A stretch of DNA of 64,000 nt from Sinomicrobium soli (GTDB lineage Bacteria; Bacteroidota; Bacteroidia; Flavobacteriales; Flavobacteriaceae). The notes under the pieces are model-generated. The model had not been told where the DNA came from. It saw only the letters and a list, made by a program, of their open reading frames with translations, and made no database searches. The stretch spans positions 1 through 64,000 of the forward strand of contig NZ_QLNV01000006.1 in NCBI RefSeq assembly GCF_003285545.1, read 5' to 3'. The translations under genes were made by a program, and so were the position numbers. Positions 13,022 to 45,856 of the stretch are shown here, piece after piece. Within the stretch, counting starts at the first letter, position 1. Each line of letters begins with the position of its first letter.

Positions 13022-13056
13022 AAAAAAGAGGCTGCCTTGACTTTTTAGACAGCCTC
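13022..13056 (-). terminator. Rho-independent terminator downstream of tRNA-Pro
   Basis: On the minus strand GAGGCTG...CAGCCTC forms a stem with loop TCTAAAAAGTCAAGG-like sequence and is followed by a run of six or more T (complement of AAAAAA at 13022-13027). It would end the tRNA transcript. The words GTCTAAAAAGT recur in inverted form near 12949-12963, so the whole 110-bp segment is a larger inverted repeat. Confidence 0.65.
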
Positions 13057-13062
13057 GTCAAG

Positions 13063-13137
13063 TCGGGGTGGCAGGATTCGAACCTGCGGCCTCCTGCTCC
13101 CAAAGCAGGCGCGATAACCGGGCTACGCTACACCCCG
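13063..13137 (-). tRNA. tRNA-Pro (anticodon TGG)
   Basis: The minus strand folds as a complete cloverleaf. The acceptor stem is CGGGGTG/CACCCCG, the D-arm contains TAGCGTAGCCCGGTTA, the anticodon loop is CTTTGGG in stem CCTGC/GCAGG, and the T-arm is GCAGGTTCGAATCCTGC. The discriminator is A and CCA is not encoded. The 5' portion of this gene is duplicated upstream (see the tandem repeat). Confidence 0.93.
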
Positions 13138-13330
13138 ATGAATAGTGTGAATTCTATTCCTTTCCAATATTTTATTCGGCCCTTCGGCCTTCCCGCCAAG
13201 AGCGGGACACGATAACCGGGCTACGCTACACCCCGATGAATAGTGTGAATTCTATTCCTTTTCAATATTTTATTCGGCCCTTCGGCCTTCCCGCCAATAG
13301 CGGGACACGATAACCGGGCTACGCTATACC
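13112..13330 (-). repeat. 98-bp tandem repeat containing 5' halves of tRNA-Pro
   Basis: The word CGATAACCGGGCTACGCT begins at 13112, 13210 and 13308, an exact period of 98 bp. Two full units and the start of a third are present. Read on the minus strand, each unit carries the 5' acceptor strand and D-arm of tRNA-Pro (CGGGGTGTAGCGTAGCCCGG), then diverges from the real tRNA into TGTCCCGC...GCGGGA and GGCCGAAGGGCC hairpins. Full units differ only by single bases (for example CCTTTCC versus CCTTTTC, AAGAGC versus AATAGC). The third copy decays after 13326. Only the copy at 13063-13137 is a complete tRNA. Confidence 0.85.
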
Positions 13331-13340
13331 CGAAAAGAAG

Positions 13341-13424
13341 CGGAGAGACAGGGATTCGAACCCTGGCGACAGTTTCCCGTCGACAGATTAGCAATCTGCT
13401 CCATTACCACTCTGGCACCTCTCC
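13341..13424 (-). tRNA. tRNA-Ser (anticodon GCT)
   Basis: The minus strand begins GGAGAGGTGCCAGAGTGG, with anticodon loop TTGCTAA (GCT) in stem CAGA/TCTG. A long variable arm (CGACGGGAAACTGTCG) is typical of class II tRNA-Ser, and the T-arm is CCAGGGTTCGAATCCCTG. The discriminator is G, as usual for serine. It is upstream of tRNA-Pro in the same direction, so both may come from one precursor that includes the tandem repeat. Confidence 0.93.
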
Positions 13425-13572
13425 GTTGAGCTTTGAATATCTTTAAGAACGTTTCCGTTGCTAAAATGCGGATGCAAATGTAGTGGTTCAGGGTGTAGAA
13501 CGCAACTATTTGCCGGACTTTTTTACGGGATATTTCCGATTTTTTTTTACCTGATTAAGAATCAACAGGATA

Positions 13573-44685: not shown

Positions 44686-45816
44686 ATGAAAAGAATATGG
44701 TCTGTATTCCGCCGTATTATGATTATTTTTTTATCGCTTCTGGCCATTCTGGTCATATCCCTTATCCTTTACCTGCAACATCCCCAGTTTGGAAAGGCCC
44801 CTTCCGGGGACCGGCTGGAGCGCCTTGCGGCTTCGCCTCACTTCCGGGACGGAGTTTTTGAGAACCTGAGCTATACGCCTCCGCTTACCGAAGGATATAC
44901 CTATCTGGAGGTAATGTATATGTTCTTCTTTAAAAAAAGCCCGGACAATGTACCCAAAGGAACCATCCCTTCGGTACGGACCGATCTGAAGACACTTCCG
45001 GAAGACGAAGATATCCTGGTGTGGTTCGGCCATTCGTCGTATTTTCTCCGGGTAAAGGGGGTGAGCATACTTGTCGATCCCGTCTTTAGCGGCAATGCTT
45101 CTCCCGTACCAGGGTCTACAAGGGCTTTTAAGGGTACTGATATTTATGATGCGGAAGATTTTCCGGATATCGATTACCTGCTTATTACCCACGATCATTA
45201 CGATCACCTGGATTATAAAACGATAGGGAAACTGAAGGATAAGGTCAAAAAGGTGATCTGTGGCCTGGGGGTGGGTGCCCACCTGGAATACTGGGGATAC
45301 CCCGCCGGTATGGTGGAGGAACACGACTGGAACGAGACCGTGGTGCTGGAGGGGCAGATGCGGCTGCATACCCTTCCGGCCCGTCATTTTTCCGGCCGGT
45401 TGTTCAAGCGGAACAATACCCTGTGGATGTCCTATCTGCTGGAAACGGGTTCACAGAAGATATACCTGGGCGGAGACAGTGGTTATGACAGGCATTTTGC
45501 CGAAATCGGAAAGCGTTTCGGCCCTATAGACCTTGCCATTCTGGAAAACGGCCAGTATAATGTGGCCTGGCATGCCATACATTGCCTCCCGGAAGAAACC
45601 GTACAGGCAGCTCTTGATCTCGGGGCCAGAAGGCTGATGCCCGTACACTCTTCCAAATTCTCTCTCTCCCCGCATGGCTGGAAAGAGCCGCTCACGGAAG
45701 TCTCCCGTTATGGAAAAGATGCGGGAATACCGCTGGTAACCCCCGTGATCGGTCAAAAAGTAAGGCTTGACGACGACAGCCAGGTCTTTGAACCCTGGTG
45801 GGAGCGGGTCAATTAG
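44686..45816 (+). CDS. Membrane-anchored MBL-fold metallo-hydrolase (UlaG/NAPE-PLD-like)
   Basis: A 376-residue protein: one N-terminal membrane segment (IMIIFLSLLAILVISLILYL), then a metallo-beta-lactamase fold with WFGHSSYFLRVKG, the zinc motif THDHYDH (His169, Asp170, His171, Asp173, His174), HTLPARHFSGRLF and YLGGDSGYD, and the end motif AWHAIHCLPEE with MPVHSSKFSLS. This resembles the NAPE-hydrolysing phospholipase D / YycJ-UlaG group rather than lactamases. Catalysis on a phospholipid or sugar-lactone type ester is possible but not shown. Its stop codon lies in a 16-bp tandem repeat. Confidence 0.85.
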   Translation: MKRIWSVFRRIMIIFLSLLAILVISLILYLQHPQFGKAPSGDRLERLAASPHFRDGVFENLSYTPPLTEGYTYLEVMYMFFFKKSPDNVPKGTIPSVRTDLKTLPEDEDILVWFGHSSYFLRVKGVSILVDPVFSGNASPVPGSTRAFKGTDIYDAEDFPDIDYLLITHDHYDHLDYKTIGKLKDKVKKVICGLGVGAHLEYWGYPAGMVEEHDWNETVVLEGQMRLHTLPARHFSGRLFKRNNTLWMSYLLETGSQKIYLGGDSGYDRHFAEIGKRFGPIDLAILENGQYNVAWHAIHCLPEETVQAALDLGARRLMPVHSSKFSLSPHGWKEPLTEVSRYGKDAGIPLVTPVIGQKVRLDDDSQVFEPWWERVN

Positions 45817-45856
45817 TCAATGTGTCAATTAGTCAATGTGATAATTAGTCAATGTG
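45809..45856 (+). repeat. Three-copy 16-bp tandem repeat
   Basis: TCAATTAGTCAATGTG occurs twice exactly (45809-45824 and 45825-45840) and once with two changes (ATAATTAGTCAATGTG, 45841-45856). The first copy contains the TAG stop of the metallo-hydrolase gene. It is a typical slippage-prone tract that can vary between strains. Confidence 0.85.

Follow-up and report, generated by a model that had tools for sequence, protein, structure and literature searches.

The locus between the tRNA-Pro and tRNA-Ser genes of Sinomicrobium soli raises the question of how half of a tRNA gene comes to be repeated in tandem beside its intact parent, and of what such truncated copies represent. The locus lies within the first 64,000 nucleotides of contig NZ_QLNV01000006.1, a stretch that was analysed at its full length and is called the window here. 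The best reading of the array, based on a comparison with other bacterial genomes, is that it belongs to a family of small, selfish cassettes resident at the tRNA genes of Bacteroidota and lacks the nuclease gene; to this reading we give a probability of roughly 60 %. The nuclease that such cassettes encode is of the GIY-YIG kind and is probably a homing enzyme.

According to TRF, the tandem array has a period of 98 bp, 2.2 copies, 97 % matches, 0 % indels and a score of 419, and it is the sole array at the locus. Because ARAGORN and Rfam place both neighbouring tRNA genes on the minus strand, the array lies between the two and on their strand, exactly where the original prediction, which was made from the letters of the DNA, had put the duplicated halves. 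The features of the locus, listed approximately in transcription order, are as follows.

13340..13424, minus strand: tRNA-Ser(GCT), the upstream neighbour in transcription order (ARAGORN, Rfam)
13112..13331, minus strand: complete 98-bp tandem array, 2.2 copies (TRF)
13308..13333, minus strand: 5' part of defective tRNA-Pro copy 1, 26 nt, with three differences from the gene (sequence, TRF)
13289..13305, minus strand: hairpin 1 at the place of the anticodon arm, TCCCG CTATTGG CGGGA (sequence, folding)
13210..13235, minus strand: 5' part of defective tRNA-Pro copy 2, 26 nt, identical to the gene (sequence, TRF)
13191..13207, minus strand: hairpin 2 at the place of the anticodon arm, TCCCG CTCTTGG CGGGA (sequence, folding)
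13178..13189, minus strand: small hairpin GGCC-GAAG-GGCC directly after hairpin 2, a motif also present in copy 1
13138..13177, minus strand: spacer from defective copy 2 to the intact gene, resembling the spacer of a Robiginitalea marina unit
13140-13159, minus strand: third hairpin, GAATAG..CTATTC, in the spacer before the intact gene
13062..13137, minus strand: intact tRNA-Pro(TGG) (ARAGORN, Rfam)
13022..13056, minus strand: terminator-like stem and T run 3' of tRNA-Pro (seen in the sequence, without a tool score)

The order in transcription is therefore tRNA-Ser, copy 1, spacer, copy 2, spacer, intact tRNA-Pro and the terminator-like stem, with the final 26 bp of the array (13112-13137) falling within intact tRNA-Pro. 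While the period and its coordinates stand as originally proposed, the description of that period as exact was too strong, given that three of the 26 bases in the outermost half, next to tRNA-Ser, depart from the gene (TCGGGTATAG for CGGGGTGTAG) and that the stretch from the hairpin to the end of the spacer carries two base differences between the two copies. Likewise, the 5' half of tRNA-Pro is indeed repeated, but its description as a half gene plus spacer was incomplete, as it passed over the replacement of the anticodon arm by a hairpin and the AAGGCC behind it. When copy 2 is aligned with the intact gene, tRNA bases 1-28 are retained with one change, and the CCTGC-TTTGGGA-GCAGG of the gene gives way, at the same place and over the same 17 nt, to TCCCG-CTCTTGG-CGGGA (loop CTATTGG in copy 1), from which the anticodon is absent. 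The variable-loop-like AAGGCC follows and then an unrelated, hairpin-rich spacer, the T arm and the 3' acceptor strand being missing. Thus, the window has the two traits by which members of the proposed family are recognized, i.e. a half copy directly beside the intact tRNA gene on the same strand and a TCCCG..CGGGA hairpin in the anticodon-arm position. One unit folds at -31.4 kcal/mol (z -1.7; 13/200 shuffles as stable) and the other at -32.4 kcal/mol (z -3.0; 1/200), and the 17-nt hairpin alone folds at -10.5 kcal/mol (z -3.8; 0/200). Taken alone, the hairpin pattern is not rare, with two occurrences in the window and at least two in 18/100 shuffles. An assembly artefact, one of the outcomes that would have overturned the original prediction, is unlikely, since a 353-kb contig encloses the array and independent assemblies contain comparable ones. 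A separate tandem repeat of 16 bp (GTCAATTAGTCAATGT, 3.1 copies by TRF) is present elsewhere in the window, at 45808-45856.

Units of this anatomy recur at tRNA-Pro genes in other genomes. A pattern in which the 5' side of the hairpin alone is fixed (AGCCCGGTNATCGNGTCCCG) was found in 87 stretches from named genomes, 80 of which were taken as loci, and 40 of these were set apart by recorded organism before their sequences were seen: they come from Bacteroidota, mostly Flavobacteriaceae, together with two loci of neighbouring phyla, one from Ignavibacteria and one from a Cloacimonadota MAG. The set-apart loci, to which some genomes contribute two, contain 45 units, and the 3' arm CGGGA is kept in 45/45, after 6-11 nt, compared with 0/40 units at the other 40 loci (mostly Streptomyces; four sequences inspected). 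The loops show further regularity. With the reservation that relatedness of the sequences inflates these counts, the first inner pair is complementary in 25/25 distinct loops of the Pro copies (A-T 7, C-G 16, T-G 2; shuffle mean 14.9) and in 30/30 of the non-Pro copies described below (A-T 22, C-G 7, G-C 1; shuffle mean 18.6), none of 2000 shuffles being as high in either set; the second inner pair is complementary in 26/27 non-Pro copies (again 0/2000 shuffles as high) and, at 17/21 against a shuffle mean of 16.7, is not above chance in the Pro copies; and the third is above chance in neither set.

A tRNA-Pro gene lies within 900 bp downstream of 34/45 Pro units, and a tRNA-Ser gene within 700 bp upstream of 19/45. 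Among the 11 units without a tRNA-Pro at that distance, eight meet a contig end (three each at L067 and L115, one each at L068 and L121), whereas the remaining three comprise one that meets the end of the fetched stretch (L082), one that sits after its tRNA-Pro (L075) and one for which no tRNA-Pro was found (L128). Arrays are present in Cochleicola gelatinilyticus (three copies at 127 bp), Aequorivita lipolytica (three copies at 86 bp) and a Flavobacterium MAG (two copies at 67 bp); because these three sit at contig ends, their copy number is possibly under-counted. Half-tRNA units or arrays were noticed at contig ends at L067, L115, L121 and L132, and short-read assemblies may therefore under-count copies. 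The spacer of the Robiginitalea marina unit matches that of the window, with a local score of 49 against 27 for the largest of 300 shuffles. The exact two-copy pattern was found in 5/397 genomes of the family; two of the five (G064 and G143) were rejected as half units, both being complete tandem tRNA-Pro genes. As a separate observation, the anticodon stem of intact tRNA-Pro(TGG) varies among genomes (CCTGC/GCAGG, CCTGG/CCAGG and CCGCG/CGCGG, as seen at L010, L011, L028, L151, L157, L160, L182 and in the window), and such changes could represent nuclease-resistance alleles.

The original prediction had also called for a search for the hairpins at other tRNA genes, and that search yielded defective copies with the hairpin arm at tRNA-Arg, Val, Ala and Pro(GGG). 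The pattern AGAGCNTCCCGN{4,12}CGGGANGGT gave 40 matches in 22/299 genomes of the family and none with the reversed control. The 30 loci inspected contain defective copies of tRNA-Arg(TCT), Val(TAC), Ala and others, usually with an intact tRNA gene adjacent, the exceptions being L228, which is without tRNA context, and L236, which is a complete tRNA-Ala. Arrays exist here as well, including one of five copies at Pro(GGG) (L162) and one of four copies with a 78-bp period at Arg(TCT) (L175), each with a short run of N inside. Outside the window, another half unit with the hairpin arm is found at tRNA-Arg(TCT) in the genome of S. soli itself (G000; L238/L271; G000:C42, ~124,634), and its congener G005 has one at that tRNA too (L272); between these two Arg(TCT) units, the half copy and the stem are retained and the loop and the spacer differ.

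Viral contigs were searched with both patterns. The Pro pattern gave three matches, none with a tRNA gene within 900 bp, and the Arg/Val pattern gave 30, most of which are ordinary tRNA genes; for this latter reason, the hairpin stem alone is not diagnostic. The notion that the stem is unique to these elements was rejected, TCCCG:CGGGA being also a legal anticodon stem (viral contigs, L236). As judged from the sequences, what is diagnostic of the units is the anticodon-free loop together with the missing tRNA half. In two viral contigs (L288 and L301), a tRNA copy with the hairpin arm is accompanied by a GIY-YIG ORF; these contigs are possible vehicles or, alternatively, may be the host flank of a provirus. 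In three genomes (L230, L231 and L248), a dead hairpin-armed tRNA copy stands after tRNA-Ile(GAT) and tRNA-Ala(TGC), possibly inside ribosomal RNA operons.

The half copies are linked to GIY-YIG genes. At 18/45 Pro units, a GIY-YIG ORF of the same strand is present in the interval from -700 to +900 bp, and at 8/45 it directly follows the unit and reaches or enters tRNA-Pro (with a broken frame at L076). In Christiangramia and Gillisia, the last codons of the ORF, CGG GGT GTA GCG TAG, are at the same time the start of tRNA-Pro. Pfam PF01541 was found in all three proteins given (E ~1e-13 to 3e-14). A profile of seven unit-linked proteins matched 195/299 genomes of the family at E <= 1e-6, the weaker of which matches can be other GIY-YIG proteins, as with a 690-aa frame in the genome of S. 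soli. That frame holds the sole profile match (E <= 0.01) in this genome, in which no small GIY-YIG gene was found, and a search of the window spacer for a trace of such a gene gave no convincing match to eight nuclease-bearing units, the best match being equalled by 7/300 shuffles. We infer that the window units once carried a nuclease, of which their spacer retains no remnant.

Among the matches listed, 90 GIY-YIG loci were compared, 70 from the upper part (30 plus 40 further places) and 20 from the lower part. A same-strand tRNA gene lies within 500 bp at 62/70 upper and 20/20 lower loci, i.e. 82/90 of the loci among the matches listed, which were chosen by their score against a profile built from tRNA-linked ORFs; an opposite-strand tRNA gene lies at that distance at 0/90 of the same listed loci. 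For five of the eight loci without a tRNA gene within 500 bp (L165, L169, L170, L174 and L180), one side is at a contig end, as judged from lengths and places, which is not so for the other three (L171, L190 and L192). Again among the matches listed, the stop codon of the ORF falls inside the downstream tRNA gene at 22/70 upper and 9/20 lower loci, and it falls exactly 10 bp inside at 21/90 (16 upper and 5 lower; L150-L219, L251-L270). With the stop codon in that position, RNase P processing would remove it from the ORF, and translation of the nuclease and maturation of the tRNA may thus compete at loci of the first of the two types defined next.

Type A loci have the order 5'-half copy with its arm turned into a hairpin, GIY-YIG ORF, intact tRNA gene, and type B loci have the order intact tRNA gene, ORF, hairpin plus 3'-half copy. 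An upstream 5'-half copy was detected for 25/51 type A ORFs (2 in the 3'-half control) and a downstream 3'-half copy for 22/48 type B ORFs (3 in the control), the latter set including the ORFs of L150 and L152, which were assigned to tRNA-Ser as the nearest gene found. At the set threshold, a half copy therefore accompanies about half of the ORFs; many others are visible by eye, interrupted by extra hairpins in the D, anticodon or T arm. Phage records gave no DNA match to the array. The nuclease protein matched four Listeria phage records (~41-42 % identity) and, in the plasmid collection, two Listeria records, and no vehicle for the cassette was identified among the phage and plasmid records searched.

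The nucleases also sort by target. On a tree of 95 distinct proteins from 59 genera, the tRNA label changes 26 times, compared with a minimum of 63 and a mean of 68 in 200 shuffles, and the genus label changes 70 times, which is below its shuffle minimum of 81 and near the maximum for 95 rows. With one row per genus and tRNA (n=76), the counts are 25 for the tRNA label (shuffle minimum 53) and 69 for the genus label. Although the tree is weakly resolved (74 columns, with 39/92 inner branches open), the nucleases of Val, Arg(TCT), Pro(TGG), Pro(GGG), Asn, Phe and His largely form groups of their own, while those of Arg(TCG/ACG), Ala and Met share a single, mixed group. Grouping by tRNA more than by genus is what mobile, tRNA-specific nucleases would give.

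Gain and loss at tRNA-Pro were compared in seven congeneric genome pairs. In G252/G024 and G264/G039, both flanks match, the length difference is ~366 and ~369 bp, respectively (by hand from alignment ends), and 20-22 bp of the tRNA 5' end stand on both sides of the insert. The pair G262/G037 is similar with extra sequence, and G130/G319, G105/G305, G216/G376 and G289/G079 give no simple picture of occupied and empty sites. The 5' flank of the unoccupied site, GATAACCAATTCGGGG, equals the final codons of the nuclease ORF, and hence the unoccupied sites may be scars of loss rather than virgin sites. Among the congeners of the window, the Ser-Pro gene pair is retained in 5/5 searched; G001, G002 and G003 have 9-16 bp between the two genes, G005 has ~108 bp with no half copy visible, and the ~95 bp of G004 are read as a decayed unit (CGGTTATCG...ATCGGGAA). 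In Gillisia hiemivivida, a 150-bp unit aligns to a 303-bp nuclease-bearing unit (score 107, against 88 for the largest of 200 shuffles), with the start and end of the ORF kept and the middle deleted; on this alignment, loss of the nuclease gene has directly produced a short unit comparable with those of the window.

A life cycle can be proposed from these comparisons. The full cassette, of ~300-370 bp, consists of a GIY-YIG endonuclease gene and a half of the target tRNA gene in defective copy. Its nuclease would cleave its own tRNA gene in an allele free of the cassette, and repair with the occupied chromosome as template would copy the cassette in, as in homing. The broken half of the gene would stay behind as the defective copy, while the half supplied by the cassette would keep the tRNA functional. 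Later, the nuclease gene would be deleted, as seen in the Gillisia unit, and the direct repeats of tRNA sequence would allow recombination or slippage to multiply or remove the leftover half-tRNA, hairpin and spacer, of which the window has two units. Of the origins that were first suggested for the array, comparison favours scars of integration or slippage, although in a more specific form, namely defective tRNA copies that GIY-YIG cassettes left behind or that form part of them, followed by duplication in tandem. Counting against the cassette reading, the intact tRNA gene stays beside the nuclease gene with no evident logic of self-protection.

Among known repeats, the tyrT/rtT repeats of Escherichia coli, in which the 3' end of tRNA-Tyr is repeated after the gene, are likewise tandem repeats that sit in a tRNA operon and include a tRNA gene fragment; the window differs in repeating a 5' half, before the gene, with a hairpin for the anticodon arm. 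By analogy, the closest described system is that of phage SegB, a free-standing GIY-YIG homing endonuclease of T-even phages (PMC13096335) whose target is given as a tRNA intergenic region (PMC2988022). SegB resembles the nucleases of the Bacteroidota cassettes in being a GIY-YIG enzyme encoded beside tRNA genes (PMC13096335), but it is phage-borne, and no preferred tRNA isotype is reported for it (PMC13096335, PMC2988022). In contrast, the Bacteroidota genes reside in bacterial genomes, fall into largely tRNA-specific groups, are accompanied by half copies with hairpin-changed arms and often end within the tRNA gene. A literature search that covered few subscription papers found none that appears to describe a chromosomal family of tRNA-linked GIY-YIG cassettes. 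A nuclease cassette of ~300 bp appears to be largely specific to individual tRNAs (Pro, Arg, Val, Ala, Asn, Phe, His and Met), and to leave split tRNA copies behind. Such a family would offer a chromosomal and countable model of the life cycles of homing endonucleases (full, nuclease-deleted, tandem and empty), and would account for half-tRNA debris that annotation ignores.

Four other explanations deserve consideration. The one that survives best is ordinary partial duplication of the tRNA gene, whereby slippage or unequal exchange copied the 5' half and its flank and the dead copy decayed, with no mobile element involved. The 26-bp direct repeats adjoining the gene make such copying easy, complete tandem tRNA-Pro genes exist too (G064 and G143), and the two window spacers are nearly identical, from which it follows that at least the last step was a tandem duplication. 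However, neutral decay should not yield a 3' arm that is kept in every Pro unit or a first inner pair that is complementary in every loop of both sets, and the dead copies of Pro-TGG, Pro-GGG, Arg, Val and Ala genes all have the TCCCG..CGGGA hairpin where the anticodon arm would be. Furthermore, the Arg units of S. soli and G005 keep the stem while the spacer changes, and duplication leaves the GIY-YIG linkage unexplained. As a full account of the array, duplication is therefore unlikely.

A functional RNA, i.e. half-tRNA and hairpin units transcribed with the tRNA operon and retained as a processing decoy, small RNA or regulator, would suit the placement of the units between two same-strand tRNA genes, and the persistence of half and stem in the two Arg units as their spacers diverged. 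Additionally, a conserved hairpin whose first inner pair covaries from genus to genus may have a structural role. Against a function as RNA, a half copy is unable to build an acceptor stem; a search of 13040-13440 against Rfam at E <= 1 gives the two tRNAs and three weak sub-threshold matches and nothing else; and the distribution is patchy, the array being absent from the congeners G001, G002 and G003 and the exact two-copy pattern being present in the five of 397 genomes noted above, two of them with complete tandem tRNA genes. A functional RNA is thus quite improbable as the explanation of the array. Rather more plausible, and still tentative, is the idea that the hairpin-armed, anticodon-less tRNA copies are a selected core of the elements instead of a product of decay, with one type of hairpin having been fitted into the anticodon-arm position of several tRNAs; these copies might then persist and multiply without the nuclease, e.g. 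as that half of a split tRNA site to which the nuclease is blind or which it recognises, or in the form of an RNA of the tRNA operon.

tRNA genes are the best known sites at which mobile DNA lands, although by way of integrases and with elements of kilobase size. The array might be the attachment-site scar of a tyrosine-recombinase element, a phage or ICE, that used tRNA-Pro. Attachment sites of genomic islands and phages in tRNA genes share with the window a partial duplication of the tRNA gene beside a mobile element, the gene itself being left intact, but they are made by integrases, normally involve the 3' part and accompany elements of kilobases, as opposed to GIY-YIG cassettes of ~300 bp or, as in the window, none. 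An integrase-like ORF was seen by eye to start ~230-250 bp 3' of tRNA-Pro(TGG) in four congeners (L010, L011, L012 and L014, in G002, G003, G001 and G004, respectively), and the sole one tested, that of G001, matches Phage_integrase (PF00589, E 1e-19), Phage_int_SAM_5 and Arm-DNA-bind_5. This tRNA gene is therefore likely an integrase target on its other side; integration there would be expected to copy the 3' end, whereas the window repeats the 5' half. Moreover, inspection by eye of the ORFs listed between 9000 and 19000 of the window showed no integrase, and the array is missing from three of the four congeners that bear the integrase-like ORF (G001-G003), the fourth, G004, having just the decayed unit. 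An attachment scar is, on this evidence, very unlikely.

Least probable of all is that REP-like palindromes were moved by a single-strand transposase into spare tRNA copies, with the nuclease link secondary, for although dead copies elsewhere carry additional D- and T-loop hairpins, some ending in TARACT, the arm in the units is replaced at equal length rather than interrupted, and TCCCGCN{2,9}GCGGGA occurs at only five places in the 4.6-Mb genome, two of them inside the array (reversed control 1), so that the hairpin is not an abundant REP. The additional hairpins, which lie within the D or T loops of dead tRNA copies at L223, L246, L027 and L036 and in several cases are followed by TARACT, possibly belong to a REP-like family of their own with a preference for tRNA debris.
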